Below are positions 14,681 to 53,952 of a stretch of 64,000 bases of DNA, one piece after another (position 1 is the stretch's first letter; each line of letters starts with the position of its first letter). The translations under genes were made by a program, and so were the position numbers. Below the pieces are notes generated by a model that was not told the DNA's origin, did not search any database, and saw nothing but the letters and a program-made list of their open reading frames with translations. This DNA comes from Acidithiobacillus ferrooxidans ATCC 23270 (lineage in GTDB: Bacteria > Pseudomonadota > Gammaproteobacteria > Acidithiobacillales > Acidithiobacillaceae). The stretch covers positions 2,448,001 to 2,512,000 of the forward strand of contig NC_011761.1 in NCBI RefSeq assembly GCF_000021485.1, read 5' to 3'.

Positions 14681-14684
14681 GGTA

Positions 14685-32036: not shown

Positions 32037-35000
32037 TCACCCCACCAACCCCTCAGCCTGTTCAATGACCAGATTCACCGCCCCTTCCTGCATGTCGGGT
32101 GGATAGCCGTGTTTGCGTAGCACCCGCTTCACCATGCGCCGCAGATGCGCCCTTGCCTGTTCCCGGATGGACCAGTCGATGCGGGTGTTTTGGCGCACAG
32201 TATCGGCCACTTCCTTGGCGATCATTTTCAGGGCCTCGTCCCCCATGGCCTGCACGGCGGAATCGTTGGTCGCCAGGGCATCATAAAAGGCGGCCTCGTC
32301 CTTGCTGAGGCCCAGTTCCGCATGGCGTTGATCCAGCGCCTGTAATGCTTTGGCCAGTTCGATGAGTTCCTGCATCACCTCGACGGTATCCACCGAACGG
32401 TTGTGGTATTTGCGCAGGGCTTCTTCCAGCTTTTCCGAGAAGGCTTTGCTCTGGATCAGGTTGCCCTTGCCTTCCTTGCGGACCTTGTCCTGCAGTAATC
32501 GACGCAGCATTTCCAGCGCCAGATTCTTTTCGGGCATAGCCTCGATCTGGTGGATGAATTCATCGGACAGCAGGGATATTTCGCTTTTGGGTAGCCCCGC
32601 CACCGCATACAGGTCCACCACGCCTTCCGGGGCGATGGATTGGTCGATAAGTTGGCGGATGGCGTATTCCTGTTCTTCCACCAGAGACTCGGCCTCGCTG
32701 GACTTGTCCAGAGTGGCACGGACGCTCAGGAAGAAAATGATCTCAGTCCGGCAGCGTTCCACAATGTCGTCGCCGGCGGCTAAAGTCGCCGCTTTTTTGA
32801 GGCCGGACGTGGCGTTGCGGAAACGGCGCTTGACGCCTTCTTCGGTGAGTTCCTGAGACAGAATGAATTCGGTGGCCTTGCGCAGGGTGGCCACCTTTTC
32901 TGATCCGTCGTCAGTCAGATAATCCTGATAGTCACAGCCATGGAAAATACCGCGGCAGATGTCGAGTTTTTCCAGCAGCACCTTGATGGCGGTCTGCACG
33001 GTTTCCGCCGGATTGCCCTTGCCACCGGAACGGGTGTAGGTGGCAATGGCGTTTTTCAGGTCCTGGGCAATGCCGATGTAATCCACCACCAGTCCACCGG
33101 ACTTGTTGGTGAAGACCCGGTTGACGCGGGCGATGGCCTGCATGAGGGTGTGCCCGCGCATGGGTTTGTCCACATAGAGCGTATTCAGGGCCGGGGCGTC
33201 GAAGCCCGTCAGCCACATATCCCGCACGATGACGATTTCTAACGGATCATCCGGGTCTTTCAGGCGGTCGGCAATGGCTTCATTGCCCGCCTTGCTGCGG
33301 ATATGCGGCTTCCATTCGATGGGGTCGCTGGCGGAACCGGTCATGACCACCTTGATCCGGCCTTGCGTGTCGTCGTCACCGCGCCAGTCGGGATGGATAC
33401 GGACGATGGCATCATAAAGTTCCACGGCAATGCGACGGCTCATGGCGACGATCATGGCCTTGCCGGACAGGATGCTCTTGCGCTTTTCCCAATGGTCCAG
33501 CAGGTCAGCGGCAATCTGTTCCACTCGCTTGGGGGCGCCGACCAGGGCTTCCAGTTGCGCCCAGCGGGTTTTCAGGCGTTCCTTGTTTTCCTGCTCGTCG
33601 TCTTCGGTGATTTCCTCAAAGGTGCTGTCGATGAGGGGGCGCTGGTCTTCCGGCAGGTTGAGGCGCACCAGGCGGCTTTCGTAATAAATCGGGACGGTGG
33701 CCCCATCCTCGACGGCCCGCTGAATATCGTAGATGTCGATGTAATCGCCGAACACCACCCGCGTGTCCCGGTCATCCAGTTCCAGCGGTGTGCCGGTGAA
33801 GGCCACGAAGGTCGCGTTGGGCAAGGCCGCCCGCAGATTGGCGGCATATCCCTTCAGAATCTCATACTGGCTACGCTGGGCTTCATCCACCATGACGATG
33901 ATGTTCTTCCGCTCGGACAATACCGGGTGCTTGCCCAAAGGTTCGTCGCGGTCTTTCTGGAATTTCTGGATGGTGCTGAACAGTACACCGCCGGAAGCCC
34001 GTTGCAGCAGTTCCCGAAGATCACTGACGCTGTCGGCCTGCTGCGGGTCTTGCCGTAAAAGCTGCTTGCCTGCGGCAAAGGTATCGAACAACTGGGTGTC
34101 CAGGTTCGTGCGGTCGGTGAGCATGAGGATGGTGGGGTTTTCCAGCGCCGGGTGCTGGATGAGCATGCCCGCGAAAAAGAGCATGGTGAGGCTCTTGCCG
34201 GACCCCTGGGTATGCCAGACCACACCACCCCGGCGATCACCACCGATGCCTGCCGATGCCAGGGTGGTCAGCAGGGCCTTCTGGGCGGCGTGGAACTGAT
34301 GATAGGCGGCGATCTTCTTGCTGAGTTTGCGGCCATCGTCACTAATGGCGATGAAATAGCGGATCAAGTCCAGAAAACGGACGGGTTCAAAAACCCCGTG
34401 AATCAGGAAACGTAAAGGGTCATCCCCCCGGTCCATGAGTTCCTGACCGTCGATGGTTTTCCAGGGCAGAAAGCGTTCATAAGGGGCACCCAGACAGCCT
34501 ACGGCGGCCTTCAGCCCATCGCTGATGACCAGTATGGCGTTGTAGGCCATGAGGTTGGGAATGTCGGCCTGATAGGTCTGTAGTTGATTCCATGCCCGGC
34601 GGGTGGTGGCGTTGGCGTCCGCCATGTTTTTCAGTTCAAAGAGGCCCAAGGGCAGGCCATTCACGAAAACCACTAGATCGGCGCGGCGGTTGATGCGGTT
34701 GTGGATGACGGTGTACTGGTTGACCACCAGCAAATCATTCTTTTCAGGATGGTCGTAGTCGATCAGGCGGACGATGCTGCCGCGTTCTTCGCCGTCCACC
34801 ATGTGCGCCACCCGTACCCCTTCCACGAGCATCTGCTGAAATAGGCTGTTCTCGGTCATCAGTCCACCCACGGCAATAGCCTGCACATGGCGTAGGGCTT
34901 CGTCGCGGATTTCCTTGGGGGCTTCTGGATTCAGGCGATGGATGGCTGTACGCAGGCGTTCCAGTAACAGGGGGTTTTCGTAGTCAGCGCGTTCTTTTTG

Positions 35001-35105
35001 GTTGCTATCCGGGCCGATGTCGGGGCCGAATGCGTAGGCGTAGCCCAGTTCTTTGAATAGGGCAATGGCGTGGTGTTCGATGGTGGATTCGTTGAGGGGG
35101 GTCAT
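32037..35105 (-). CDS. hsdR: Type I restriction enzyme, R subunit HsdR
   Basis: 1,022 residues, the motor and nuclease subunit of a type I restriction-modification complex. N-terminal PD-(D/E)xK nuclease '[20 protein letters not shown]' (D...ExK), then the SF2 translocase with Walker A '[10 protein letters not shown]', DEAD-box-like 'MVDEAQRS', 'FTGTPLE', and motif VI region '[10 protein letters not shown]'. The C-terminal helical domain would bind HsdM. The ATG at 35105 overlaps the stop of the HEPN-like gene (ATGA). The protein appears full-length. Confidence 0.96.
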
Positions 35106-35887
35106 AATATAGAATCCCTGTATTGTAACAATACGGAAACCAGTTGAAATGGGGTCATATTTAATGGGGACCGATTAACGCTGGGGTCATCACGGTGCAC
35201 AAAATTGTCCCTAAATTTCACAAGTTCATCTAATTTTCCGGCAAGGTCTATGTGACCGCCAAGATGCTTGAGAGCAAACTCAGAAGCAGCCCTGTCATTG
35301 GTAAACTGTGATTTGGTTCTAGAGATGCTTTCCACCCTTTCACTATTTTCAGTCGATCGGGCAAATAGATCATGGAAAAGCTGTTCCAGTGCTCTAATAC
35401 AAAGAAACATTGATACATCTGCAAGATAGGGATCGACCCACGCTTGAATCAATACGCGCCTTGCTGCACTGAACGATGTTTGCACCCGATCACTTCTCAG
35501 ACCACTTGGTAACTTGCTAACGAAACTTACAAGATCATCAAGCTGTGTGAATGAAACATTACTGTCGTCGATAAGCTGTATCTTAAAAGAATTATTTTCC
35601 GGTTTGGATTTATCTATGAAACTAAATTTCTTAGCTTCTTCCTTTACGTCATCGATTGTTGAATCTCTCATCCAAACTAAAAATAAGCCAGAAATAAAAA
35701 CTACTGTCAAAAGAGAATATTTTTTGTCTAAAAGAAAATTTATCAAATTATGTGTGGGGTCTTCTTCGTGTTTTTGAGTGGTTTTAGACGGCAGCACTTG
35801 ACTGATGACCAGTGCGGGAATATATGGACTAATTTTCCTAACTATTGAAAATATATCATTTTTCATATTGTTTTTTATTTTATCCAT
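35102..35887 (-). CDS. Membrane-anchored HEPN-like protein within hsd operon
   Basis: 261 residues, visibly more AT-rich than hsdR and hsdS. An N-terminal soluble part, one membrane helix ([17 protein letters not shown], about residues 58-74), then a cytosolic all-helical domain ending '[18 protein letters not shown]'. RDNFVH fits the R-x4-6-H motif of HEPN RNases, and '[14 protein letters not shown]' is a compatible HEPN helix. The ATG overlaps the hsdS 3' end by 13 bp and its stop overlaps hsdR, so it is translationally locked between S and R. Not a known Hsd subunit; may be an accessory or abortive-infection effector. Assignment is by motif only. Confidence 0.55.
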
Positions 35888-37131
35888 GGATAAGCCCTAT
35901 CGTTTTCGATGGTGCGTTCGTCTAAAACGCGGATTTCGCCGGATATGAGTTTGGGTAGAAGTGTGTCACGTAAAAAAACCAGCTTTTGTTCCTCAACAGT
36001 TTTCATCCACATAACTTCAAACATGGACGATAATGGTTTATTCATGACATCGAGAGTGCCTGAGCATGGGAAAGGCAATTTTGAATCGGATAAATGGTGT
36101 CGCTGAATATGACCCATTGTTGTGGCCTTACCAGCAGCTATTTCCCGAAAGAAATCTAAAAAGTGATGGACGCCGAAGTAACACAACCAACGCGGATAAT
36201 CTGATTTGGGTGTGACTTTAAAAAGGTGCTGGTTGAGAGCCCCTGTGCCCCCCGACCAGATAGCGCATTCAAGAGAGCCAGACCAAGAAAATAAGATGTC
36301 GCCATCATGCACTATATACTGTGGTTCTATTTCACAACTTGCCTGATCAGCACCGCCGAGATTACCTGACCTAAGTTGTGCAATTTTTATGACAGGCAGG
36401 GCGTCATCTTGACCTTTTGATGGGAATTTCTGCAGCGCCAAGCCATTCAGGAAGTTCCCTATGTTATCTAATGACCTAACCACCCACCCCTCAGGAATTT
36501 CCCCCAATTCCGAGTCCACCAGCTTATCCGGGAACAGGTCCAGAATCTCGGGCGTGAGCTTCAGCCGCTTGCAGATACTTTCCGGGGATTCCCCGGCCAT
36601 CTTGGCGCGTACCGGGTCGAAGTCCACGAACCACGACTGGAAGATGGCCTGTGCCATGGCTTCCAGGGTTTTCGCCGTCTTGCGGTTGTTCTCGATTTTG
36701 TCGTCCAGGGTGCCGAGAATGTGGGCGATGCGGCGTTGTTCGGTGGGATCGGTTGGAATCCGAACCCTCGCCTGATGTAGGTGGTTGCGATTCAAGCCGG
36801 GAACAGCCGCCTTGTCTGAATAGACGAGAAAGTCAACCTCGCGTAGAAAATAACTTATGAAACGTGGGTCGTTGCCTTTGAAGTCGTACACGTAAAGCGT
36901 GGTGTTGAGCGGCCAAAAATTCTGCCTAACGTAAAATACTTGTCCTAATGTTCCGTATCGTCCAGTCACAACCCCCGGTCCCTTGACCATTGCTTTTGCG
37001 TGGGTGTCCGTGACACCGGAAGATGAGACCAGCGGAACATCACCAGATAAACGTTCTTTTTGCGGTAGGTCGTAGCCACGCTTCAGTTCGATAACATCAC
37101 CAAGCGAGCATTCTTTCCACTCGTTCGCCAT
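35875..37131 (-). CDS. hsdS: Type I restriction enzyme, specificity subunit HsdS
   Basis: 418 residues with two target-recognition domains separated by a helical spacer. TRD1: 'CSLGDVIELKRGYDLPQKE' to 'RIPTDPTEQRRIAHIL'; spacer 'LDDKIENNRKTAKTLEAMAQ'; TRD2: 'GEIPEGWVVRSLDNIGNFLN' to 'EEQKLVFLRDTLLPKLISGE'. The two halves recognise the two parts of the DNA target. The frame is open to 37182, but AAGGG seven bases before the ATG at 37131 and the alignment start (MANEWKECSL) favour this start. The target sequence cannot be read off. Confidence 0.92.
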   Translation of the reverse strand: MANEWKECSLGDVIELKRGYDLPQKERLSGDVPLVSSSGVTDTHAKAMVKGPGVVTGRYGTLGQVFYVRQNFWPLNTTLYVYDFKGNDPRFISYFLREVDFLVYSDKAAVPGLNRNHLHQARVRIPTDPTEQRRIAHILGTLDDKIENNRKTAKTLEAMAQAIFQSWFVDFDPVRAKMAGESPESICKRLKLTPEILDLFPDKLVDSELGEIPEGWVVRSLDNIGNFLNGLALQKFPSKGQDDALPVIKIAQLRSGNLGGADQASCEIEPQYIVHDGDILFSWSGSLECAIWSGGTGALNQHLFKVTPKSDYPRWLCYFGVHHFLDFFREIAAGKATTMGHIQRHHLSDSKLPFPCSGTLDVMNKPLSSMFEVMWMKTVEEQKLVFLRDTLLPKLISGEIRVLDERTIENDRAYPWIK

Positions 37132-37270
37132 ACCCTGGCCCTTCAGGTTGGTTTTTGCCGGGTTGTTGTTACAGTTATCCATCGCACGCCGTCTTATGAT
37201 AAGACGGTAAGGTTGAGTTTGCCGGCTGCAACTTGACCCATGCCGTATTTTTTAAGTCTATTGTTTGGGA

Positions 37271-37817: not shown

Positions 37818-39395
37818 TTACAGTTCATACCCCAACACCCGAAAATTCTTCAGCATCTCGTCTTCCAACCGCCGTCCTTCCGCCAACTGCGCGGACAGTT
37901 CCTTGGTCAGTCGGTCCATCTTTTCCTCGAAAGGCTCGCCGTCATCATCCTTGGCGGCAGCCCCAACATAACGCCCTGGTGTCAGCACATGGCCGTTCTT
38001 GCGGATGTCATCCAGACTGGCCGCCTTACAGAAACCGGGAATATCCGCATATTCCCCGTCCCCATCGCCGCGCCAGTTGTGGTAGGTGTCGGCGATCTTT
38101 TGGATGTCTTCATCGGTCAGTTCCCGGTGGGTGCGGTCGGCCATGAAGCCCATGTTGCGGGCATCGATGAACAGCACTTCGCCGGTGCGCTCAAACAGTT
38201 CCTTGCCGGTCATGCCGCGTCCGTCATCGCGGTTCTTCGCCAGGAACCACAGGCACACGGGAATCTGGGTGCTATAGAATAGCTGGCCCGGCATGGCCAC
38301 CATGCAGTCCACCAGATCCGCTTCAATGAGGTTCTTGCGGATTTCGCCTTCACCGCTGGTATTGGATGACATGGAACCATTCGCCAGCACGAAGCCCGCG
38401 ATGCCGTAGGGTGCCAGGTGATGGACCATGTGCTGCACCCAGGCGAAGTTGGCGTTGCCGGTGGGCGGTATCCCATACTGCCAGCGTTTGTCATCCCGCA
38501 ACAGGTCACCGCCCCAATCGGAAATGTTGAAGGGCGGGTTGGCAAGGATGTAATCGGCACGCAGGTCGGGATGCAGGTCTTTGTGAAAGGTGTCCGCCGC
38601 TTCCGGTCCCAGGTCGGCCTCGATGCCGCGAATGGCGAGATTCATGAGGGCCAGCTTCCAGGTGTTGGGGTTGGATTCTTCCCCATAGACGCTGATGTCG
38701 CCGACTTTGCCACCGTGGGCCTCGATGAACTTTTCCGACTGAACGAACATGCCGCCGGACCCGCAACAGGGGTCATAGATGCGCCCTTTGTAGGGGGCCA
38801 GCATGGTGACCAGGGTTCTGACCACCGATGCCGGGGTGTAGAACTCGCCACCCCGTTTCCCTTCCGCGCTGGCAAATCGACCCAGAAAATACTCGTAGAC
38901 CCGGCCCAGGGTGTCGCGGGCCTGATGTTCGGCGGTGCCAAGGCCAATGGTACCGATGAGGTCCACCAGTTCGCCCAGGCGGCGCTGATCCAGGGTGGGG
39001 CGGGCATAGCCTTTGGGCAGGATGTTTTTCAGATGCGGGTTTTCCCGCTCGATATCGGTCATGGCACCGTCGATGCGCTTGCCGATGTCCGGCTGTTTGG
39101 CGGCAGTTTGCACCACTGCCCATCTGGACGATGCCGGTACCCAGAACACGCCTTCCGCCGTGTATTCATCTCGGTCTTCGGCTGCGTAAGTCCCTGCTTC
39201 TTCCCGAATGATTTCTTCATGGCGTTGGGCAAAGCGGTCCGAGATGTATTTCAGGAAGATGAGGCCCAGCACCACATGCTTGTAGTCGGCGGCGTCCAGA
39301 TGCCCACGCAGCTTGTCGGCGGTGGCCCAGAGCTTCGATTCCAGGCTCTGGCTGGTGGTGTCTTCGGTCTTCTTTTTGGTTGGTCCGCGCGGCAT
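37818..39395 (-). CDS. hsdM: Type I restriction enzyme, methyltransferase subunit HsdM
   Basis: 525 residues, an N6-adenine methyltransferase. N-terminal helical domain '[20 protein letters not shown]', SAM-binding '[19 protein letters not shown]', catalytic '[13 protein letters not shown]' (NPPF), and C-terminal coiled segment '[20 protein letters not shown]' that contacts HsdS. AAAAGGGAT lies just before the ATG. The first gene of the operon; its start and upstream 45 bp are duplicated exactly at 49019-49074. Confidence 0.97.
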
Positions 39396-39440
39396 GGTAT
39401 CCCTTTTGATTCTTTGGGATGTTATATCATGAAAAGGCGG
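39385..39440 (+). repeat. 56-bp exact repeat, copy 1 (partner 49019-49074)
   Basis: Covers hsdM codons 1-4 and the upstream promoter and ribosome-binding region. It contains a weak palindrome (ATCCC TTTTGATTCTTT GGGAT). Identical to 49019-49074. Confidence 0.9.
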
Positions 39441-39460: not shown

Positions 39461-39904
39461 ATGGCTAGTGTGATTTATCTGATGACCAACGTCGCCATGC
39501 CGGGTTTGGTCAAGATCGGCAAAACCGATAGCGCCGATACACTCAACGCGAGGCTGAGAGACCTCTACAATACCAGCGTTCCCCTGCCGTTCGAGTGGTA
39601 CTTTGCGGCGCAGGTAGACGACGCGGATACCCTTGAAAGAAAGCTGCATAGTCTGTTCGGCGAGTTTCGTGTTAACACTAAGCGCGCGTTTTTTCGTGTT
39701 GATCCAGAAAAGGTAGTCATTGCCGTCACCATTGGTTCCTATCAGGAAATTAACGTGTTCAGTCAGGCAGGCGATGCCGATGAGCAGAGGGTTACCTGCC
39801 ACTTAGAGGAAAGCTACTGGGTTCGTAGTTGCCTACTGATGCTCACCAACAGCCAGCAAGCGTTTTTGCACATAGTCGGATCACTGAATTCTGATGATCC
39901 GTAG
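39461..39904 (+). CDS. GIY-YIG/T5orf172-like protein, C-terminus rearranged
   Basis: From the ATG at 39461 (GAGGGCAAGG upstream) 147 residues. '[19 protein letters not shown]' is the GIY-YIG-like start, with the Arg of '[11 protein letters not shown]', then '[20 protein letters not shown]' and '[15 protein letters not shown]', as in the MUG113/T5orf172 family. After 'VTIGSYQEI' the expected tail is lost and unrelated sequence follows, ending over the vapC remnant. Divergent from hsdM with a 65-bp gap, so probably part of the restriction island; catalytic competence uncertain. Confidence 0.65.
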
Positions 39905-44199: not shown

Positions 44200-44598
44200 A
44201 TGCGCATTGACCATCTGGATCACCTCGTCCTGACCGTGGCGGATATATCCGTTACGATCGCCTTCTACTCACGGGTATTGGGCATGCAGGAAATGACCTT
44301 TGGTGACCAGCGCAAGGCGCTGATCTTTGGACAGCAAAAAATCAACCTGCATCCGGCAGGGCATCCCATAGCGCCCCATGCGACCAGCCCCACTCCCGGG
44401 TCGGCGGATTTGTGCTTCATTGTCACCGGTGGTATCCAGGGGGTGCTCACCCATCTGCAGACCTGCGGAGTCACTCTGGAAGCCGGTCCGGTGCCCCGCA
44501 CTGGAGCCACGGGGCCGATCACCTCTGTCTACTTCCGGGATCCCGATGGCAATTTGCTGGAGGTGGCCACGTATGATCAGTCGATACAACTGTCATGA
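44200..44598 (+). CDS. VOC-family (glyoxalase/bleomycin-resistance-like) protein
   Basis: 132 residues, one vicinal-oxygen-chelate module pair: 'MRIDHLDHLVLTVADISVTI' start, with metal His, 'LGMQEMTF', and 'SVYFRDPDGNLLEVATYD' end with metal Glu. Enzyme type not determined: dioxygenase, isomerase or drug binder. Overlaps the SDR gene by four bases (ATGA), so the two are coupled. Confidence 0.88.
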   Translation: MRIDHLDHLVLTVADISVTIAFYSRVLGMQEMTFGDQRKALIFGQQKINLHPAGHPIAPHATSPTPGSADLCFIVTGGIQGVLTHLQTCGVTLEAGPVPRTGATGPITSVYFRDPDGNLLEVATYDQSIQLS

Positions 44599-45338
44599 CC
44601 GGTAATTCGCGCGTCGCACTGGTTACCGGCGCCACCTCCGGCATTGGTCTGGCTATCGCGCAGCGTTTAACGCAGGCGGGATATTGGGTGGCCCTGCATT
44701 CCCGCGCTTCCTCCGCTGCGGGTCTACAAGCGGCGGCAACGCTGGCGGGTGCCCACTATTTTCAGGCAGACTTGCTGGAGGATGGTGAGCGCAGGGATCT
44801 GATCAATCAGGTGTATACGCACTATGGTCGGCTCGACGTGCTGGTCAATAACGCGGGTGAGTCCAGCATGATTCCGCATGATGATTTACAGGCCGCGACA
44901 CCGGACCTCTGGCACCGCCTCTACGAACTCCATGTGGTGGCGCCCTGGCAACTCGTCGCGCTGAGCGAACCCTATCTGCGCGCGGCATCGACGGCCGAAC
45001 ACCCGGCGGCGGTATTAAATATCAGCTCTCATGCCGGTGTGCGACCCAAGGGTGCTTCCATACCTTACGCCGCCAGCAAGGCCGCATTGATTCATGTCAC
45101 CCGCTTACTCGCCAAAACCCTGGGACCCGATATCCGGGTGAACGCTATCGCCCCGGGGCTGGTGGATACGCCGCTGACCGAAGATTGGGCGACCATTCGC
45201 GAACAATGGATTCGCGATGCCCCCATGGGTCGGAGTGCGCGCCCTGGCGACGTCGCGGATGTTGCCATGATGCTGACCGAATCGAGCTATCTGACGGGAG
45301 AGGTGATTGTGGTGGACGGCGGGATGAACCTGCTTTAA
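44595..45338 (+). CDS. Short-chain dehydrogenase/reductase
   Basis: 247 residues, classical SDR: cofactor loop 'VTGATSGIGLAIAQ' (TGxxxGIG), 'NNAGE', catalytic Ser in 'NISSHAGVRPKG', 'YAASKAAL' (YxxxK) and C-terminal 'YLTGEVIVVDGGMNLL'. Looks like a NAD(P)-dependent reductase such as FabG or sugar/steroid types; substrate unknown. Coupled to the VOC gene and followed by a terminator. Confidence 0.93.
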   Translation: MTGNSRVALVTGATSGIGLAIAQRLTQAGYWVALHSRASSAAGLQAAATLAGAHYFQADLLEDGERRDLINQVYTHYGRLDVLVNNAGESSMIPHDDLQAATPDLWHRLYELHVVAPWQLVALSEPYLRAASTAEHPAAVLNISSHAGVRPKGASIPYAASKAALIHVTRLLAKTLGPDIRVNAIAPGLVDTPLTEDWATIREQWIRDAPMGRSARPGDVADVAMMLTESSYLTGEVIVVDGGMNLL

Positions 45339-45369
45339 CGCGCCGAGGAGAATGGCGCGGATTTTGTTT
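45339..45369 (+). terminator. Terminator after the SDR gene
   Basis: Hairpin CGCGCC GAGGAGAAT GGCGCG right after the stop, followed by GATTTTGTTT. It separates the VOC-SDR unit from the SMR gene. Confidence 0.6.
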
Positions 45370-45374
45370 ATAAT
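45369..45374 (+). promoter_or_regulatory. -10 element (TATAAT) before the SMR gene
   Basis: Perfect TATAAT at 45369-45374, about 30 bp before the SMR start. The -35 region is poor, so confidence is limited. Confidence 0.35.
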
Positions 45375-45402
45375 ATGCAGTAACGCCTGTATGAAGAGGT
45401 TC

Positions 45403-45741
45403 ATGGTTAATATGCAATGGTTATATTTGGCAATAGCGATCGTTTCCGAAGTCATTGCAACTTCGGCGCTCAAGGCAACAGATGGCTTTACGCGTTGGAG
45501 CCCGATTCTTCTTGTTATTGTGGGGTATATGCTGGCATTCTATTTGCTTTCTCTTTCACTTCGTTCTATTGACCTTGGTGTTGCCTATGCTATCTGGTCT
45601 GGAGTAGGAGTAGCCTTAATCGTACTTGTTGGTTGGGTCATTTATCGTCAGCCGCTAAATATGGCTTCTTTCATTGGTATAGCGCTCATCGTTTCTGGCG
45701 TAATAGTGCTCCATCTTTTTTCAAAATCGACAGCGCATTGA
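45403..45741 (+). CDS. SMR-family small multidrug transporter
   Basis: 112 residues, four membrane helices: 'LYLAIAIVSEVIATSALKAT' with the essential Glu of the EmrE/SugE family, 'ILLVIVGYMLAFYLLSLSL', 'GVAYAIWSGVGVALIVLVGW' and 'FIGIALIVSGVIVLHLFS'. Exports cationic drugs or guanidinium in exchange for protons. Other in-frame starts are 45412 and 45391; AAGAGG lies before both. AT-richer than the neighbours. Confidence 0.9.
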   Translation: MVNMQWLYLAIAIVSEVIATSALKATDGFTRWSPILLVIVGYMLAFYLLSLSLRSIDLGVAYAIWSGVGVALIVLVGWVIYRQPLNMASFIGIALIVSGVIVLHLFSKSTAH

Positions 45742-45793
45742 ACGCTACGATTAACAAAACATGCGATGGACGCACAAAAGGTGATTCTGTGAC

Positions 45794-46336
45794 ATGAAAA
45801 TCCTTGCTCTATCTGGTAGCCTGCGCGCCAATTCAATCAATTCTGCACTGCTGCGAGCGGCAGCCAGACTTGCTCCTGTGGAATTAATGGTGACCGTGTA
45901 CCATGGACTGGGTGATCTTCCATTATTCAATCCAGATATAGAGGGCCGGTCTATTGAATCTGTCACGAACTTCCACGCGCAAGTGGCCAACGCCGATGCC
46001 CTACTTATCGCCAGCCCGGAGTATGCGCACGGTGTCACAGGAACCATCAAAAACGCGCTGGACTGGCTCGTCAGTTTCGAGCCGTTTACCTATAAACCGG
46101 TGGGCATATTCAATGCGTCGCCACGCGCACAACATGCGGATGCGGCGTTGCGCGAGATTTTGAAAACGATGTCTGCCATGGTCGTGGAGGAAGCCTCAAT
46201 GACCATTCCACTTCTCGGCGCCAACCTCGATGAAGACGGTATGGTTTCCACGCCATCTGTCGCGGCACCCATCCGGGGAGCGCTGCTCGCATTGTCCGAA
46301 GCAGTCGTTCGGGCAACGGAACAGCAACAGGAATGA
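45794..46336 (+). CDS. NADPH-dependent FMN reductase family protein
   Basis: 180 residues: flavodoxin-like fold with 'ILALSGSLRANSINSALLRA' (FMN phosphate loop), 'LPLFNPDI', 'LLIASPEYAHGVTGTIKNAL' (diagnostic S-P-E-Y-x-x-G) and 'WLVSFEPF'. Relatives include ChrR, ArsH and azoreductases. Substrate unknown; leads a close-packed five-gene row. Confidence 0.92.
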   Translation: MKILALSGSLRANSINSALLRAAARLAPVELMVTVYHGLGDLPLFNPDIEGRSIESVTNFHAQVANADALLIASPEYAHGVTGTIKNALDWLVSFEPFTYKPVGIFNASPRAQHADAALREILKTMSAMVVEEASMTIPLLGANLDEDGMVSTPSVAAPIRGALLALSEAVVRATEQQQE

Positions 46337-46339
46337 TGA

Positions 46340-46819
46340 ATGTACCAGATCGAAACCGGCATAGAAATCACAGCATCACCGGAGCACGTGTGGTCCATCC
46401 TCATGGATTTCCCCGCCTATCCGCAATGGAATCCCTTCATTCGCTCGCTTTCGGGAGTGGCGAAGCCGGGAGAGAAGCTGCGTGCGACCATTCAACCCGA
46501 GAAACGCCGGGCCATGACCTTCCGCCCGAGGGTGCTGACGGCAACAGATCAACAAGAATTACGCTGGCTGGGCCGCTTGGGATTTCCGGGCTTATTCGAT
46601 GGACAGCACTACTTTCAGCTCGCCGCGCTCAGCAATGGGTACACGCGGTTCACCCAGGGAGAGCAATTTTCAGGCATTCTGGTGGGCATGTTCATATCCA
46701 GCATGGCAGCGGCGACAAAAGCGGGTTTTCATGCAATGAATCAGGCATTGAAGAATCGCGCGGAGGCGAATGACCATATTGGCCACGCACATGATGACAT
46801 TTCCAAGGAGTGGTACTGA
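46340..46819 (+). CDS. SRPBCC-domain protein
   Basis: 159 residues, START/Bet v1-like fold: 'IEITASPEHVWSILMDFPAY' and 'WNPFIRSLSG', then 'HYFQLAALSNGYTRFTQGEQ' and a long C-terminal helix 'AATKAGFHAMNQALKNRAE'. Binds hydrophobic ligands; function not known. Starts 3 bp after the FMN reductase stop, so cotranscribed. Confidence 0.85.
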   Translation: MYQIETGIEITASPEHVWSILMDFPAYPQWNPFIRSLSGVAKPGEKLRATIQPEKRRAMTFRPRVLTATDQQELRWLGRLGFPGLFDGQHYFQLAALSNGYTRFTQGEQFSGILVGMFISSMAAATKAGFHAMNQALKNRAEANDHIGHAHDDISKEWY

Positions 46820-46820
46820 C

Positions 46821-47306
46821 ATGGATACCCGAAAGCTGCTGCTCACCGCGCAGGAAATCAGTCGGATGAAGGGCGAACATAAGGTCCATTTCCTCAATCC
46901 CGGTGCTGTTCGTGTCAATAAGTCTTTAGGCGATGCGGTAGGCCTCCGGCACATGGGTATACATCTCATCCAGATAGAGCCGGGTAAAGAGAGTACCGAA
47001 TACCACCTGCATCATTATGAAGAAGAAGCCGTGTACGTGCTGTCTGGTAAGGGCACGCTCACCATGGAGAATGATCAGTATCCCATCGCCCCAGGTGACT
47101 TCGTCGGTTTTCCTTGCCATGCAGCCGCGCACAGCATCAGCAACGATGGAACGGAAACACTCGTGTGCCTGGTCATCGGTCAGCGACTGGATCAGGATGT
47201 CGTGGATTACCCGAATCAGCATAAACGCCTGTACCGTAATAATGGGGAATGGAATCTGGTGGATATGGCAGATATCCGTGTGTTGCGCGAACCCACGCAG
47301 AAATAA
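46821..47306 (+). CDS. Cupin-domain protein
   Basis: 161 residues from ATG 46821 (AAGGAG ten bases upstream). Cupin motifs 'EYHLHHYEEEAVYVLSGKGT' (H-x-H-x4-E, a full metal site) and 'GDFVGFPCHAAAHSI' (G-x-x-P...H). Resembles mannose-isomerase-like or dioxygenase-like cupins. The intact metal ligands suggest an enzyme. Lies between the SRPBCC and transglutaminase genes. Confidence 0.88.
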   Translation: MDTRKLLLTAQEISRMKGEHKVHFLNPGAVRVNKSLGDAVGLRHMGIHLIQIEPGKESTEYHLHHYEEEAVYVLSGKGTLTMENDQYPIAPGDFVGFPCHAAAHSISNDGTETLVCLVIGQRLDQDVVDYPNQHKRLYRNNGEWNLVDMADIRVLREPTQK

Positions 47307-47316
47307 TAGGAAATTT

Positions 47317-47964
47317 ATGAAGCTCGCAAAATTCGATACCCAGCCGTTACCGCACTTCCTGATGGAAAGTGCCACCGTAGATTATGCGCATGCCGATATC
47401 CGTAAGTTGGCGGCCGCCTTATCCTCTGACGATTCAACGGCAACCGCCAGGCATTGCTTCGAATGGGTACGCGATCACATCGAACACAGCATGGATTTTC
47501 ACCGGGAAGAAGTGACCTGCGCAGCGTCGGATGTGTTGCAGCAAGGCACTGGCCTATGCACCGCGAAAAGTCATCTGCTCGTGGCCTTATGGCGCGCCAA
47601 CCAAATCCCTGCGGGATTCTGTTATCAACGACTGACGCTGGATGGCCCCAATCCGCCCTACTGTACACACGGCTTCACTGCGGTCTGGCTGAATGGCCGG
47701 GGCTGGTATCGTTGTGATGCGCGCGGCAACAGCAAACCCGGGATCCACTGCGAATTCACGCCCGGCCAAGAAAATCTTGCTTTCTCGTCGAGGTATGACG
47801 GCGAGCGGACCTATCCGGAGGTTTGGGCAGAGCCCTGGCCAGACTTGCTCACCGCCATGGAAAAACTGCAAAACATATCGCAGTATCGGAGCCATCCCAT
47901 TGATGCCCGCCCACCCGCCGCAGATTTGTGCGTAAGTGAGTCTGCAGCGCCGAACATGGAATGA
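47317..47964 (+). CDS. Transglutaminase-like cysteine hydrolase
   Basis: 215 residues. Catalytic triad in order: Cys in 'GTGLCTAKSHLLVALWR', His in 'PPYCTHGFTAVWL', Asp in 'WYRCDARGN'. Family members cleave or form isopeptide or similar bonds, or degrade peptides. The N-terminus resembles the bacterial transglutaminase-like group that begins with short leader sequences. Starts 10 bp after the cupin stop (TAGGAAATTT before ATG). Confidence 0.88.
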   Translation: MKLAKFDTQPLPHFLMESATVDYAHADIRKLAAALSSDDSTATARHCFEWVRDHIEHSMDFHREEVTCAASDVLQQGTGLCTAKSHLLVALWRANQIPAGFCYQRLTLDGPNPPYCTHGFTAVWLNGRGWYRCDARGNSKPGIHCEFTPGQENLAFSSRYDGERTYPEVWAEPWPDLLTAMEKLQNISQYRSHPIDARPPAADLCVSESAAPNME

Positions 47965-47977
47965 CAGGAGGCCGAAC

Positions 47978-48634
47978 TTGTATTGTCCTGAGTCATTTGC
48001 AGAAAACCGCCCGGAAATCCTGCGGGCACTGATTCAGTGTTATCCCCTCGCGACACTGGTCAGCATGGGCGGTAATAGTCTGGAGGCGAATCATATTCCC
48101 TTGTACCTCGTACCTGGTGAAGGACCGCAACCGGTGCTGCAGGGACACGTGGCACGCGCCAATCCCCTGTGGCGAGAGACGCTCCCGGACGATGAGGTGC
48201 TGGTCATCTTTCAGGGGCCGCAACACTACATCAGCCCCTCGTGGTACGCGACCAAGGCGGAAACCGGCAAGGTGGTGCCTACTTGGAACTATGCCGTCGT
48301 CCATGCCCACGGGCCGCTGCAGGTCAGGGACGATCCCTATTGGGTACGGCAACAGATGGTCGCCCTGACCGCGCAGCAGGAGAACAGTTTCACCCCGCCC
48401 TGGGAGGTGGGTGATGCGCATCGGGATTTTACGGATCGTCTCATCCAGCAGGTAGTGGGCATAGAAATCCCCATCTCCCGCTGGGTGGGCAAGTGGAAAA
48501 TCAGTCAGAACCAGCCGGTTGGCAACCGTGACAGTGTCGTCGCGCACCTGGAGCAGCAAAACCAAGCTGGCTCTGAGGCCATGGCTGAATATATTCTGGC
48601 CGGCGTGAAAGGCGGCAAAAGGGACCATCCTTGA
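47978..48634 (+). CDS. PaiB-family FMN-binding protein
   Basis: 218 residues from a TTG at 47978 with a perfect AGGAGG six bases before it (47966-47971), which settles the start against the ATG-like codon at 47936. 'YCPESFAENRPEILRALIQ', 'EANHIPLYLV', 'PSWYATKAETGKVVPTWNYA' and 'VVGIEIPISRWVGKWKISQN' are typical of PaiB, named a negative regulator in Bacillus and structurally an FMN-binding split barrel. In Bacillus PaiB is paired with the PaiA acetyltransferase, absent here. Confidence 0.92.
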   Translation: MYCPESFAENRPEILRALIQCYPLATLVSMGGNSLEANHIPLYLVPGEGPQPVLQGHVARANPLWRETLPDDEVLVIFQGPQHYISPSWYATKAETGKVVPTWNYAVVHAHGPLQVRDDPYWVRQQMVALTAQQENSFTPPWEVGDAHRDFTDRLIQQVVGIEIPISRWVGKWKISQNQPVGNRDSVVAHLEQQNQAGSEAMAEYILAGVKGGKRDHP

Positions 48635-48675
48635 TGACGATTACCGTGGGTTTTCTGGTGTTTCCGGGTATCCAA

Positions 48676-48870
48676 CTAGTAGGCCCATGCCGCATCCTCT
48701 TCCGGTTTTAGCCAGTCTTCAGCCAGTGAGGCTTCCGAAAGCAGTGCTTCTTCGTTGGCAGGCGGCGTCAGCAGGGTCAGCAAGGCACGACCTACAGGCA
48801 ATGCCTTGTTCATCCCTACTGGATGTATCCTTCCTTGCGCATCAATTTCCACTTCAATGGGTTGCAGCAT
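48676..48870 (-). CDS. Small orphan antitoxin-like protein
   Basis: 64 residues: 'EVEIDAQGRIHPV' and 'ALLTLLTPP' form a short AbrB-like beta hairpin and 'LAEDWLKPEEDAAWAY' an acidic helical tail, as in small VapB/DUF2281-like antitoxins. No toxin gene follows on this strand: the next sequence is the 3' end of the convergent paiB-like gene. Confidence 0.6.
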   Translation of the reverse strand: MLQPIEVEIDAQGRIHPVGMNKALPVGRALLTLLTPPANEEALLSEASLAEDWLKPEEDAAWAY

Positions 48871-48916
48871 AGCTCAACCCTCGAACATAATTCAGTTGAA
48901 CAACGACTCAACCCCA

Positions 48917-49018
48917 TCATAGATCATACCCCAACACCCGAAAGTTCTTCCGCATTTCCTCTTCCAGCCGCCGCCCTTCGGCCAACTGTTCCGACAGTTC
49001 CTTGGTCAGCCGATCCAT
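48917..49018 (-). pseudogene. hsdM: hsdM C-terminal remnant (second copy)
   Basis: Reads '[20 protein letters not shown]' then '[13 protein letters not shown]' and a stop, about 87 percent identical in DNA to the 3' end of the intact hsdM (37818-37921). At 49019 it joins directly, out of frame, to codons 1-4 and the upstream region of hsdM, so about 480 codons are deleted. It is a diverged allele, not a simple copy. Confidence 0.88.
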
Positions 49019-49074
49019 CCGCGCGGCATGGTATCCCTTTTGATTCTTTGGGATGTTATATCATGAAAAGGCGG
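49019..49074 (+). repeat. 56-bp exact repeat, copy 2 (partner 39385-39440)
   Basis: Identical to 39385-39440, covering hsdM codons 1-4 and the upstream 45 bp. Exactness contrasts with the diverged C-terminal part next to it. Confidence 0.9.
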
Positions 49075-49149
49075 AGTGGTGAGAGCGGCGTTGGAACGCT
49101 CCCGGTCGAATGTAAATGGGCAGATGCCCGCAACCGTCAAATACCAAAA

Positions 49150-49174
49150 GACCCCGCCGATTCTTCGGCGGGGT
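49150..49174 (-). terminator. Terminator of the lipoprotein gene
   Basis: Perfect GACCCCGCCGA/TCGGCGGGGTC hairpin with a TTCT loop. On the minus strand it is followed by TTTTGGT, so it ends the lipoprotein transcript. Confidence 0.85.
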
Positions 49175-49201
49175 CCCATCACAAACAACAGGCGTGATGA
49201 A

Positions 49202-49507
49202 TTACTTCATCATCGACTTTTTGAACATCCGCTCCACCTTCGTGTTGGCTTCATCAGCCTTCTGATTGGCAGCGTTGGCGGTGCTCATCGCCTGATCAGC
49301 GGTGCTCTGCGCGGCGTTGGCTTTGCTCAGGGCATCGGTAGCGGTGCTCTGCGCAGCGTTGGCCTTGGCCAGTGCTTCGTTGGCGGTGGACTGCGCGGCA
49401 TCAGCCTTCGCAGAAACCTTGGCAAGGTCAGAACTGGTCGCACAACCGGCCAGGCCCAAGGGCAAAATCAGCGCAGTTACCTTCAAAGCGGTGGTGAACT
49501 TGCTCAT
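49202..49507 (-). CDS. Alanine-zipper outer-membrane lipoprotein
   Basis: 101 residues: signal peptide with lipobox 'LAGC' (Cys22), then a coiled coil of four 14-residue units (residues 37-91), 'AAQSTANEALAKAN' being the first, and 'KSMMK' at the C-terminus. Built like Lpp (Braun lipoprotein) and OprI: a helical trimer with an Ala-rich core; the C-terminal Lys could attach to peptidoglycan. Preceded by AAAGGAGACTGCT and followed by a strong terminator. Confidence 0.85.
   Translation of the reverse strand: MSKFTTALKVTALILPLGLAGCATSSDLAKVSAKADAAQSTANEALAKANAAQSTATDALSKANAAQSTADQAMSTANAANQKADEANTKVERMFKKSMMK
49235..49399 (-). repeat. 42-bp tandem repeats in the lipoprotein gene
   Basis: Four imperfect 42-bp units encode 14-residue repeats. 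The third and fourth are more diverged. Copy number may vary by slippage. Confidence 0.75.
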
Positions 49508-49910
49508 AGCAGTCTCCTTTGTTGGGTTGGAAAACGAGCAAACAAAGCATAGCTAAAAAAACAACAACGCGCCAGTCCTTACACACAGTCTTTACACACG
49601 TTTCTCCGGTGGTGCCGCAATCCGGTGCATCAGTCGCACGAGCGACCACCCGGCCCACCTTCACCGGCACGCCACAAAAAATGGATCACCTCTTTTAACC
49701 TGATCCAACATCATCCAGCCGACATGATGACAGAGCATAGACTGCGGGTGGGGCGGCCCCATCTCATTGTTTACAAATAAATAAAATTATCTTCTTGACT
49801 TTTATCATATTTTTTGTAAAATGCTGTTTCATTTCGTCTTTTGAGAAAACTGCCAGTATCATTGCGGCCGGGAGGGGTCGCCACAGACCAGCTTAGATAA
49901 GGAGATAGAC
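49508..49910. other. Divergent regulatory region
   Basis: 403 bp between the leftward lipoprotein and the rightward secreted protein. No gene. It holds the promoter at 49795-49822 and an A+T-rich segment from 49760 to 49830. CACACAGTCTTTACACACG near 49580-49600 contains two TTACACAC half-sites. Confidence 0.45.
49795..49822 (+). promoter_or_regulatory. Sigma-70-type promoter for 49911 gene
   Basis: -35 TTGACT (49795-49800, 5/6) and -10 TAAAAT (49817-49822, 5/6) separated by 16 bp, leaving a leader of about 80 nt. Confidence 0.6.
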
Positions 49911-50489
49911 TTGATACGACGATTATCTGCCGGGATGAGTCTTGCCCTGTCGACGTTTTTTCTGCCCAACGCCCTGGCGCCGAATCTGCCGGACTCGCCC
50001 GCACCATTCCTCGGCACTCCCATCAGCAGTATCGGCGACCCCCTGAAGCCGGGCGTCAGCCTGGGTGATACCACCGATGCCCAACCTGTTACGGACTCCA
50101 CTCAGGCACAGGGGGCCAGTGATGGCGCGCTGCTCATGCACCACGGATTTTTTTATTTGCGGCGCGTAACCGCCTATAACGCACTTGCTGATCAGACAAA
50201 CAGCGACCCGGATATTTCGGCCTGCGGTCCCAACCGGCCGGATCAGGTGGCGCTGTCACAGGACCTGTTCTTCCGCAAAAACGGGGGCAACCGCTGTGGC
50301 GAACGCATCAACATCATCCTACGTTCCGGGCGCGTCATTCATGGCGTAGTCTGGGATACCATGAATCCCCGCTACCACATGGCAGCCGATATACTTATGG
50401 GCAGCGTTCAGCACGCCGTGGATTTTGGCGTCAAGCAGGCCAAACTGCGTTTCGTCCATTCCATGGCACCCGTCACCAACGGCATCTAA
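49911..50489 (+). CDS. Secreted 3D/RlpA-like (double-psi barrel) protein
   Basis: 192 residues starting at TTG 49911 with AAGGAG six bases upstream. A short hydrophobic leader (AGMSLALSTFFLPNALA) is followed by a Pro-rich stretch, then a C-terminal domain 'VTAYNALADQTNSDPDISAC' through 'QVALSQDLFF', 'CGERINIIL' and 'GVVWDTMNPR' reminiscent of the 3D/RlpA double-psi beta-barrel fold, which includes lytic transglycosylase-like and cell-wall-binding domains. Two cysteines (SACGPN and RCGERI) may form a disulfide. Family membership is by pattern and needs a profile search. Confidence 0.6.
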   Translation: MIRRLSAGMSLALSTFFLPNALAPNLPDSPAPFLGTPISSIGDPLKPGVSLGDTTDAQPVTDSTQAQGASDGALLMHHGFFYLRRVTAYNALADQTNSDPDISACGPNRPDQVALSQDLFFRKNGGNRCGERINIILRSGRVIHGVVWDTMNPRYHMAADILMGSVQHAVDFGVKQAKLRFVHSMAPVTNGI

Positions 50490-50520
50490 GCGGGCACCGC
50501 ACGCGGTTCGGGCGGTTTGG

Positions 50521-51861
50521 TCAGCCTTCCGCCCATCCTGCTGCCATCATGGCTTCGACCTCGGCAACCTCCTTGGGTACTTCGCTCGACAAAACATCCG
50601 GACCGCCGGTGGTCACCAGCACGTCGTCTTCGATGCGAACCCCGATACCGCGCCAACGCTCCGGTACCGATGGATTATCCGGCGAGAAGTACAGGCCCGG
50701 CTCCACCGTCAGCACCATCCCCGCCTCCAGTTTCCGCCAGGACTGATCCGCGCTGCGATAGTGGCCGACGTCATGAACGTCCATGCCCAGCCAGTGCCCC
50801 GTCCGGTGCATATAGAAGGCCTTGTAGCTGCCCTGCTCGATGACTGCGTCGCGACTGCCGGAAAGTATCTTCAGCTCCAACAAGCCGTCCACCAGCACCT
50901 TGACGGCCTCGTCATGATAATCGGTAACGGAGCGCCCTACCTGTACGGCGGCGATTGCCACTTTCTGACTGGCCAGAACGACTTCGTAAACTTCCCGTTG
51001 TGCGGGGCTGAAAACCCCGTTCACCGGCAAGGTCCTGGTGATGTCTCCGGCGTAGGCGCCGACCTCTGCACCGGCGTCGATCAGTACCAGATCGCCATCG
51101 CGCAGTTCCGCATCATTTTCCGTGTAGTGCAGAATGCAACCGTTGATTCCGCCACCGACGATACTGGGATACGCCACGCTGGGCGATCCGAGGCGACGAA
51201 AAACATGCTCGATCTCGGCGGCCAGTTCGTATTCCAGCATACCCGGACGACATTGGCGCATGCCATGGCGATGCCCGGCACCGCTGATGCCTACCGCCGC
51301 CCGCAGGATTTCGATCTCTTCGGGGTCTTTGAACAACCGCATCTCATGGATCAGGTCGGCAACATCGACCACTTCGAGTGGGTAGCGCACACCCTGGCGA
51401 ATCTTGCTCTTGGCAACATTGCGCCAGTGCATGACCCGCGCGTCGAAATCCGTGGACTGACCCATGGGATAAAACAGCAATTCCCGATTTTCCAGCAGTT
51501 GTGGAAGAACGTCGTTCAGGTCATGAATCGAGAGGCAACGATCCACCTGACATTGCTCAAGAGCACCCTCCAGCCCAGCGCGACGCCCATCCCAGGTTTC
51601 CCGCTCGGGATCACGGGGACGGCAGAACAAGATCTGTTCCCCGTCGGCGTGTCCCGGTGCCAGCACCAGTATAGCCTCCGGCTCTGCAAAGCCGGTCAGA
51701 TAGAGGAAATCGCTGTCGCCGCGAAATGGGTACTGTACATCGCCGTTACGGCTCTTGGGTGTGGCGGTGGGTATGATCGCGACACCGGCAGTGTGCATCT
51801 TCTGCATCAGCAGACGACGGCGGGCGGCATGATCGGGGCGAGGCAAATCAAGCTTGGGCAT
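50521..51861 (-). CDS. pepP: Xaa-Pro aminopeptidase PepP
   Basis: 446 residues, M24 metallopeptidase removing the N-terminal residue before Pro. N-terminal domain 'RGDSDFLYLTGFAEPEAIL', catalytic domain with metal ligands Asp in 'LVLIDAGAEVGAYAGDITR', His in 'HRTGHWLGMDVHDVG', Glu in 'LTVEPGLYF' and 'VRIEDDVLVT'. Length fits E. coli PepP (441). Leftward, single gene or read together with the DUF4168 gene upstream. Confidence 0.95.
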   Translation of the reverse strand: MPKLDLPRPDHAARRRLLMQKMHTAGVAIIPTATPKSRNGDVQYPFRGDSDFLYLTGFAEPEAILVLAPGHADGEQILFCRPRDPERETWDGRRAGLEGALEQCQVDRCLSIHDLNDVLPQLLENRELLFYPMGQSTDFDARVMHWRNVAKSKIRQGVRYPLEVVDVADLIHEMRLFKDPEEIEILRAAVGISGAGHRHGMRQCRPGMLEYELAAEIEHVFRRLGSPSVAYPSIVGGGINGCILHYTENDAELRDGDLVLIDAGAEVGAYAGDITRTLPVNGVFSPAQREVYEVVLASQKVAIAAVQVGRSVTDYHDEAVKVLVDGLLELKILSGSRDAVIEQGSYKAFYMHRTGHWLGMDVHDVGHYRSADQSWRKLEAGMVLTVEPGLYFSPDNPSVPERWRGIGVRIEDDVLVTTGGPDVLSSEVPKEVAEVEAMMAAGWAEG

Positions 51862-51983
51862 TTGGCGGACCTCCTATATGCCCTATTATCACACAAAGCA
51901 CAGATGCGAAGGAAAGGCCGAAAAAAGCACAAGCGGGCGCGCCGACAATCCCGGAAGGAAAGCGGCGCTGGCCAGGGTGGGTT

Positions 51984-52424
51984 TTACCGCATGTCTGACT
52001 CGACCTCTTTCGCGAAATCCGGATCGCTCTGGGTCTGCCTGAGCAGGCTGGAATACTGCTCTGCGGTCAGGTGATTTTTAGCGAGTATATCGTCCACCTT
52101 CGTCATATAGGATTTTTTCAACTCTTCCCGCTGGGTGGCGGTGATACCCTTCCGACTCAAGGCAGTGTGGACCTGTTCATTGAGTGGCTTGATCTCCTGG
52201 ACGGCTGCCGCGAAATTCTTTACTTCCGCAGGGCTTGCCGCTGCACCCCCGGCTACCGCTGTGCGCATCAACCCTGGTGCCGATGTCCCTATGCTGGACG
52301 CGAACGCCGTGCCGGCCCCAAGGCCCATCAGGCCGAAAGCAGCCAAAACGACCCCCGCCATACCCCTCCGCAGCGGTGAATGAAATAGGCCCTGTGCAGC
52401 AGAGTAAACCGGTAACTTTTGCAT
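51984..52424 (-). CDS. DUF4168 secreted protein
   Basis: 146 residues. Signal-like hydrophobic stretch 'GMAGVVLAAFGLMGLGAGTA' then the DUF4168 domain: 'SPAEVKNFAAAVQEIKPLNE' and 'ILAKNHLTAEQYSSLLRQTQ'. Periplasmic helical protein of unknown function, frequent in proteobacteria and cyanobacteria. Confidence 0.75.
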   Translation of the reverse strand: MQKLPVYSAAQGLFHSPLRRGMAGVVLAAFGLMGLGAGTAFASSIGTSAPGLMRTAVAGGAAASPAEVKNFAAAVQEIKPLNEQVHTALSRKGITATQREELKKSYMTKVDDILAKNHLTAEQYSSLLRQTQSDPDFAKEVESDMR

Positions 52425-52593
52425 AATATTCCTCCTTTCAGACGATCATAAAAACACCGGGCAGCTTCACATATCAGCAATTTATGTGATGTATTACCTG
52501 CAGTTACAGGTCACACTAACCGCTCCGGAAGGATATTGCAAGCCGCGGGCCTTCCTGCTGGCAGGTGCGTTGCGACCATCAGTGCGCCAGGAT

Positions 52594-53952
52594 TCACTCC
52601 GCAGCAAAGGCGGCCTCCATTGCATCACCCAGGCGGCCCGCCGGGTGCAGTTTAAACGTGGCGGCAGCCGAAATCTTGTCGCTGCGCGGGAGAATGGCGC
52701 CTTTGAAGCCCAACTTGACGGCTTCACGAACCCGTGCCTCGGTGCCCGCCACCGGACGCACCTCTCCCGCCAGACCCAATTCGCCAAAGACCACCCGACG
52801 GCCCTCCAGGGGTTTATTGCGAAAACTGCTGACCAAGGCGAGGGCCACGGCAAGGTCGGCGGCAGGTTCGTTGACTTTGATCCCCCCCGCGATATTCACA
52901 AAGACATCCTGATCAAAAAACATGCTGTCACCGTGACGATGCAGAATGGCCAGAAGGAGGGAAAGGCGGTTGGGGTCCAGACCGATGGCAACCCTGCGCG
53001 GATTCGCCAGAGGACTCGGGGTTACCAGCGCCTGCACCTCCACCAGCAGGGGGCGGGTTCCTTCCTGCGTCGCCAGCACCACGCTCCCTGCCACGGGTCG
53101 CTCATGCTGCGACAGGAAAAGCTGCGAAGGATTGGCGACCTCGCTCAAGCCCTCTTCATGCATCTGGAAAACACCCAGTTCGTTGGCCGCCCCAAAGCGG
53201 TTCTTGATGGCGCGCACGATCCGGTAGGGGCTACCCGCCTCCCCTTCGAAATAGAGCACGGTATCCACCATGTGTTCGAGCACACGAGGGCCAGCAATGG
53301 CTCCCTCCTTGGTCACATGACCCACCAGCCACACCGTGGTGCCCGTCGCCTTGGCGAAACGCACCAGGCGTGCCGCACACTCCCGCACTTGCGCCACCGA
53401 GCCGGGGGCCGATTGCAGTGTGTCGGTATAGACGGTCTGAATGGAATCCACCAGCACCAGTGCGGGCTGTTCGCCCCGGAGCAGCCCCTCGATCGCTTCA
53501 AGATGGTTTTCGGCGACCACCCGTACGGGGCTCCGGCCCAGCCCCAGGCGCTGCGCCCGTAAGGCGACTTGTGCCGCCGACTCCTCCCCGGTGACGTAAA
53601 GCACCTTGCTGACCTGAGCCAGGTGATGGGCAGTCTGGAGCAGGAGGGTGGATTTTCCGATGCCCGGCTCCCCGCCCAGAAGAATGGCTGCCCCCGGCAC
53701 CTGCCCGCCGCCCAGCACCCGGTCGAGTTCTGCCAGGCCCGTCGTGCTGCGCCCCACATCCGTGATCGGCACCGCATGCAGAAATTGCGGCGGGCTGGCC
53801 GTGGCATAGGTGGTTTGGGATTTGGCCACGGTCTTCTCCACGCGCTGTTCGACGAAGCTGTTCCATGCACCGCAATCTGGACAGCGTCCCAGCCATTTAT
53901 TGCTGATACTGCCGCATTCCTGGCAAACGAAAAGGGTTTTGTCGCGACTCAT
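52594..53952 (-). CDS. radA: DNA repair protein RadA
   Basis: 452 residues. N-terminal zinc finger C-x2-C...C-x2-C ([19 protein letters not shown]), RecA-like ATPase '[14 protein letters not shown]', the RadA-specific '[13 protein letters not shown]' (KNRFG motif) and a Lon-like C-terminal domain '[16 protein letters not shown]'. Helicase-like branch-migration factor in recombination. Start overlaps the alr stop by four bases; alr-radA coupling is common. Confidence 0.96.

Follow-up and report, generated by a model that had tools for sequence, protein, structure and literature searches.

Remnant of a second hsdM gene, probably left by cassette recombination and deletion, beside a conserved lipoprotein gene in Acidithiobacillus ferrooxidans ATCC 23270

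Introduction

The genome of Acidithiobacillus ferrooxidans ATCC 23270 very probably carries, at a conserved site marked by a lipoprotein gene, the non-functional remnant of a second hsdM gene, which would have come about by recombination between two type I restriction (hsd) cassettes and a later deletion. The remnant, here also called the scar, lies in the stretch of 64,000 nucleotides that we analysed (the window, positions 2,448,001-2,512,000 of a genome that consists of one contig of 2,982,397 bases). It is built of two hsdM pieces that abut at 49018/49019, and about 1,463 bp of the gene are missing between them (37921-39383 in the coordinates of the intact copy). Table 1 gives the features in window positions.

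The comparison took in one A. ferrooxidans strain and relatives of other species. Genomes are named by handle where they have to be told apart: ATCC 23270 is G000, and among the relatives are A. concretivorus (G003), A. ferrianus (G006), A. montserratensis (G009), A. sulfurivorans (G011) and A. ferriphilus (G013).

Table 1. Features of the intact hsd locus, the scar and its surroundings (window positions)
Feature	Position	Strand	Basis or remark
hsdR	32037..35105	-	PF04313, PF18766, PF11867
hsdS	35875..37182	-	PF01420
Intact hsdM, 525 aa	37818..39395	-	PF02384, PF12161
Other copy of the identical 57-bp tract, at intact hsdM	39384..39440	-	Repeat search, alignment
T5orf172/GIY-YIG-like gene, divergent from intact hsdM	39461..39904	+	PF10544 on longer ORF 39419-39904
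First 14 codons of a putative DJ-1/PfpI-like gene (by reading)	48634..48677	+	Cut at 48677
Antitoxin-like ORF, 64 codons	48676..48870	-	G010 homologue 69 codons
hsdM 3' remnant, last 33 codons (MDRLTKEL...RVLGYDL, stop)	48917..49018	-	13/99 positions differ from 37822-37920
hsdM codons 1-4 and 45 bp upstream (ribosome-binding and promoter region)	49018..49074	-	57 bp identical to 39384-39440
Native upstream flank, with an ortholog beside intact hsdM in G010	49075..49200		98% over 49018-49520
Terminator-like stem-loop behind the lipoprotein gene	49177-49148	-	Within native flank
Alanine-zipper lipoprotein gene, conserved site marker	49202..49507	-	PF11839

Make-up of the scar and the intact locus

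A repeat search returned two families of direct repeats that tie the scar to the intact gene: 37815-37920 with 48914-49019 (85% over 106 nt) and 39384-39451 with 49018-49085 (94% over 68 nt). Both are stretches of intact hsdM, the first its 3' end and the second its 5' end with upstream DNA, and both recur in the same orientation at 49 kb. Chance similarity between the scar and hsdM is excluded. The scar joins a diverged hsdM C-terminus to the first four codons and upstream DNA identical to those of the intact gene, just as the preliminary description had read it. The divergence of about 13 percent given there is borne out by the 13 differing positions among 99 (37822-37920 against 48921-49019), and the spacing of the direct repeats, put at 9.6 kb, measures 9,634 bp. 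The identity of the promoter end is likewise exact, and only its length needs amending, from 56 to 57 bp.

The scar has hsdM homology at both ends, and the methylase domain is lost, with only 33 C-terminal and 4 N-terminal codons left. The original start can give at most a 7-codon peptide, and the only other product is a 33-residue tail from an internal ATG, which lies exactly at the scar junction; with these as the sole possibilities, the remnant would have no methylase function. By reading against the intact copy, microhomology between the two surviving pieces where they meet does not exceed 2 bp.

The open frames of intact hsdM, hsdS and hsdR suggest that together they are most likely a working locus. 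Two hsd loci had been proposed for this region; this stands for hsdM, of which there were once two genes, but there is one hsdR and one hsdS in the region, and what is left of the second cassette is the ends of hsdM and an antitoxin-like gene. The intact HsdM falls below the NCBIfam hsdM cut-off (175.8 vs 242.75 bits), and the Pfam N6_Mtase and HsdM_N models match it over nearly its full length. The gap between hsdM and hsdS (37183-37244 and 37271-37793) holds a DUF4926 gene, an 88-residue ORF without known family and, by reading, the start of a putative PemK-type toxin gene; in relatives, toxin-antitoxin-like genes of other kinds occupy the gap, MqsA-like in G005 (just under the Pfam cut-off) and HigBA-like in G011 (by reading).

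On its other side, intact hsdM faces the T5orf172 gene, which finds a match in 4 of 29 family genomes and stands beside hsdM in only two of them, ATCC 23270 and G009. It marks the outer flank of intact hsdM as a different cassette type. The same type of flank is found in G009 and at this genome's own hsdM copy at 1.198 Mb, where the T5orf172 match spans only 35 of 147 residues.

The scar site in related genomes

The region 48650-49520 finds some match in 31 of 57 genomes, mostly to the lipoprotein gene. G010 has a counterpart of the site: window positions 49018-57691 are colinear with its locus L026 (8675 to 1) for 8.7 kb at 95.8% identity, and at 98% near the scar. A full hsdM with an open frame (8608-10231 of L026) starts there exactly at the scar site, beside the same lipoprotein gene; the orthologous place in a relative is occupied by an intact gene (flank 96-98%, body about 88%). 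Since the upstream DNA is 96-98% identical to G010 and a full open hsdM stands at that very spot, the scar is a resident hsdM minus about 1.46 kb. One point against this reading is that identity to G010 drops from 96% in the flank to about 88% in the hsd genes, so that the gene body need not have descended vertically. The 3' piece of the scar is no nearer to G010 (91/105) than to G013 (91/105) or G017 (90/105), so that the deleted hsdM could belong to any of several lineages; it matches the intact copy at 87/102.

Other relatives show further states of the site. In G005 the order is hsdR-hsdS-antitoxin-like-hsdM, the distance to the same lipoprotein gene being about 2.3 kb, and G004 is eroded further, down to the end of hsdR, an intergenic piece and an antitoxin-like piece; a search of 29 family genomes gave no hsdM match in G004.

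In the same search hsdM found a match (E <= 0.001) in 17 genomes, several of the lesser matches being fragments; across the genus, stubs or other fragments of hsdM turn up in G003, G005, G006, G010, G012, G013, G014, G017 and others. ATCC 23270 itself has a third hsdM at 1,198,445-1,200,073, full-length by alignment (88%, and 80-81% in the pieces matching the scar). Its frame (L036, 10440-12120) is broken, the longest open one being 433 codons.

Beside full hsdM genes, G006 (L029, 5026-5088), G017 (L035, 8525-8587) and G010 (L026, 4902-4964; all in reverse-complement coordinates) carry short stubs of the hsdM 3' end, each about 60 bp long. An attachment site within hsdM is an unlikely reading of these stubs, as their ends vary (query 63-66) and their neighbours differ. 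Reciprocal loss, in which the intact copy was kept here and G010 kept the other copy with a stub of the first, would fit the layout. Identity to the window is only 81-86% for that stub and the DNA around it, however, as against 96% for the core flank, so that both copies need not descend from one ancestor, and we set this reading aside. Another hsdM remnant (L170, G003:C16) has a 3' piece that breaks off no more than 1-2 bp from the 3' breakpoint of the scar, which may be coincidence.

Exchange or conservation of the promoter end

How can one end of a decayed gene be identical to the intact copy when the other end has diverged? The preliminary description invoked recombination or gene conversion, with the proviso that the 56 bp should not be common elsewhere in the genome. 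They are not: the 56-mer occurs exactly twice in 2.98 Mb, both times in the window. Moreover, it is found in 5 of 173 compared loci, all five from the ATCC 23270 genome and none from relatives.

To place this identity in the hsdM family, the tract was aligned across 13 full-length members, the remnant pieces and two further fragments. Over the tract, the scar matches the intact copy at 56/56 positions, G010 at 53/56 and the next best at 48/54. In the 78 pairs of full-length copies, median identity (gaps ignored) is 66% for the tract and 85% for the gene body; counting gaps gives 64% and 85%. In 70 of the 78 pairs (gaps ignored) the tract falls below the body. Leaving out G009 (55 pairs) raises the tract median to 72%, and the body stays at 85-87% across pair sets. 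No other identical tract pair turned up among the 120 pairs of an earlier set or the 78 of the full-length set, and the best pair without the window copy or G010 reaches 91%, as does one pair with a G011 fragment. The exact identity stands out because the tract region is usually more variable than the hsdM gene. Within the scar, mismatches number 0/57 in the tract vs 13/99 in the 3' piece (Fisher p = 0.0023, for a comparison chosen post hoc).

The outer border of the tract points the same way. Directly upstream, the scar matches G010 at 33/34 positions and the intact window copy at only 15/34, so that outer flanks of T5orf172 type and of lipoprotein type meet matching promoters, which supports recombination between two cassettes. 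As for the outline of a conversion tract, the outer flanks differ and so do the 3' pieces; the remnant body beside the tract is deleted, which makes the inner border invisible. The two window copies are nearer to each other than to the ortholog (56/56 vs 53/56 to G010), a difference resting on three sites. Past the end of the tract, the intact gene shows no particular likeness to G010 (78-98% in successive bins of about 100 bp).

The rival reading is that the 57 bp are identical by chance or function, as a selected promoter and start region without recent exchange. The tract does contain the start codon, a purine-rich ribosome-binding stretch and what we take to be a TGnTATAAC element, visible in most hsdM copies. 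In addition, the promoter type is common to the intact copy, the 1.198-Mb copy, G005, G006, G010 and G011, and in this group tract and gene are conserved to about the same degree. The tract is also short; the intact copy differs from G010 at only 3/56 sites, and at a divergence that low full identity of the tract would be expected in about 5% of cases, a point against exchange. Against conservation stand the 70 of 78 pairs in which the tract falls below the gene body, the lack of a second identical pair in either set, and a strict promoter scan of the remnant that found no site. On balance we consider conservation unlikely, and the identical promoter end appears better explained by recombination, as the preliminary description had favoured.

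A proposed route to the scar

Recombination followed by deletion would account for the scar in two steps. In the first, which we infer, homologous recombination between two hsd cassettes would have produced two hsdM genes that face the same way, separated by about 10 kb, with identical promoter ends. This could have been a single crossover that brought a molecule with hsdM, the T5orf172 gene and cargo into the resident hsdM; such an event would leave direct repeats, identity at the crossover and unlike flanks on either side. Short-tract gene conversion between tandem hsdM genes would be expected to give the same pattern. In the second step, which the comparison with relatives shows, an ordinary deletion with at most 2 bp of microhomology took about 1.46 kb out of the body of the hsdM on the lipoprotein side. 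At a separate junction, a toxin gene and the last codons of the antitoxin-like gene were removed.

In a bolder version of the first step, the molecule that came in was circular and perhaps ICE-borne, and a single crossover in the hsdM promoter integrated it. Resident restriction loci would then serve as homologous landing pads for new defence cassettes, and the redundant methylase would be deleted while its promoter still served the orphan antitoxin. An ICE-borne molecule of this sort would resemble the now broken pair of hsdM and T5orf172 genes with which ICEAfe1 ends in this genome. We offer this version as speculation and consider it unlikely.

The neighbouring junction and a possible use of the remnant

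Next to the scar, the antitoxin-like ORF has lost its last five codons without a frameshift, and neither Pfam nor NCBIfam holds a family for it. In G010 the homologous gene is followed by a PemK-like toxin gene (PF02452), which is missing in the window. Instead, the truncated ORF is fused at 48677/48678 to the 14-codon gene start on the opposite strand. The frame of this gene start runs on past 48677, for at least about 30 bp, in L161, L162, L163, L165, L166, L167 and L169; L164 diverges soon after 48677, and the matches of L168, L172 and a second one in L169 end earlier (48662-48666). Position 48677 is a truncation joint, since seven other copies continue in the same frame. For the same reason we ruled out that it is the end of a mobile element, as had seemed possible from matches stopping there in several genomes.

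The retained parts raise the question of whether the remnant is still useful. The hsdM promoter might drive the orphan antitoxin-like ORF and the 33-residue HsdM tail and so shield the cell against related PemK-type toxins. Indeed, the promoter region and the start site survive, as does the antitoxin-like ORF (64 of 69 codons, without a frameshift), and all of them point in one direction. Yet the ORF is without its last five codons and its toxin partner, it matches no family, and an ORF this short may stay open by chance. A present use of this kind strikes us as quite improbable.

The repeats as a switch

The segment between the 57-bp repeats begins with the T5orf172 gene at 39461 and goes on with an HTH regulator, a cupin, an O6-methylguanine methyltransferase, Ada-AlkA, a glyoxalase, a short-chain dehydrogenase, a small multidrug transporter, an FMN reductase, a polyketide-cyclase-like protein, another cupin, and transglutaminase-like and FMN-binding proteins. 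Of 14 of its ORFs scanned against Pfam, 13 have a family (the exception is 39894-40178), and none is a recombinase. The block breaks off 14 codons into a further gene, the putative DJ-1/PfpI-like one. The block 44200-48677 (glyoxalase/dehydrogenase/cupin/transglutaminase/FMN-binding) has two more partial copies in the same genome, at 2847515-2850662 and 1757507-1759383 (94-97%), and it recurs in variable copies across the genus.

The preliminary description also suggested that the repeats could excise or shuffle this segment. Excision through two exact direct repeats is possible, and its product would have a locus order like that of G005. The idea of an active switch nevertheless finds no support and is very improbable: the 14 intervening ORFs scanned are without a recombinase, the repeats are hsdM ends rather than a site found elsewhere in the genome, and the tract is absent from relatives' loci among the 173 compared. 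Inverted repeats within hsdS copies are missing too: between 30 and 60 kb the search (seed 14) returned no inverted pair of 25 nt or longer. The phase-variable type I loci tvr and cod of pneumococci likewise have repeated hsd sequence near an intact locus, but there, according to the portions of the sources available to us, it is hsdS that is varied, by invertase-driven inversion or by excision and reintegration (PMC6265443, PMC11709252), whereas the repeat here is an hsdM promoter with neither a recombinase nor an inverted repeat within the ranges given above.

Least credible of all is an assembly artefact, for although assemblies may be wrongly joined at repeats, colinearity of the flank with G010 extends as far as the tract, the truncated neighbours resemble ordinary deletion joints, and the genome is one contig.

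Genomic context

The locus lies near a published candidate island. Table 1 of PMC10322971 places iMGE7 of ATCC 23270 at 2462004..2478265, with tRNA His-GTG and a 49-bp repeat; this corresponds to window positions 14004-30265, where ARAGORN finds the tRNA-His at 14004-14079 and the tRNA 3' end recurs at 30217-30265. Thus iMGE7 sits directly to the left in the same interval between tRNA-His and the lipoprotein gene, bounded by the 49-bp repeat, but as listed there it ends at 30265, and the hsdR-S-M genes and the remnant are outside it. In G003, G005, G008, G009, G011 and G016, too, the tRNA-His 3' end finds matches no more than about 15 kb from the lipoprotein gene on one contig, so that the interval looks like a variable hot spot.

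The same table gives iMGE3 as 909149..1200493, which by its tRNA-Ala site is the 300-kb ICEAfe1 of that paper's introduction; from this span, the third hsdM is at the right end of ICEAfe1. An hsdMSR downstream of IS21 has been reported in ATCC 23270 (PMC10214660), in a passage with too little detail to place it at this locus. The remnant goes unmentioned in the portions available to us of the literature on restriction-modification and the mobile genome of Acidithiobacillus (PMC4226512, PMC10214660, PMC10322971).

Conclusions

The find is an ordinary instance of the birth and death of type I restriction loci, and the footprint of recombination in it is modest. It shares with the known turnover of hsd loci in genomic islands the mix of intact and decayed cassettes, module exchange, toxin-antitoxin neighbours and high variation between species, and it differs in no way of kind; what is particular here is that one promoter end is identical, probably by exchange, and the rest is deleted. 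Its value lies in laying out one case step by step, from promoter-end exchange through redundancy to deletion, at a variable site linked to tRNA-His. It also cautions against taking every short exact repeat near hsd genes for a switch, as some may be scars. Otherwise this is ordinary genome decay, of the sort left behind in an acid-loving bacterium as defence genes are rapidly gained, exchanged and lost.
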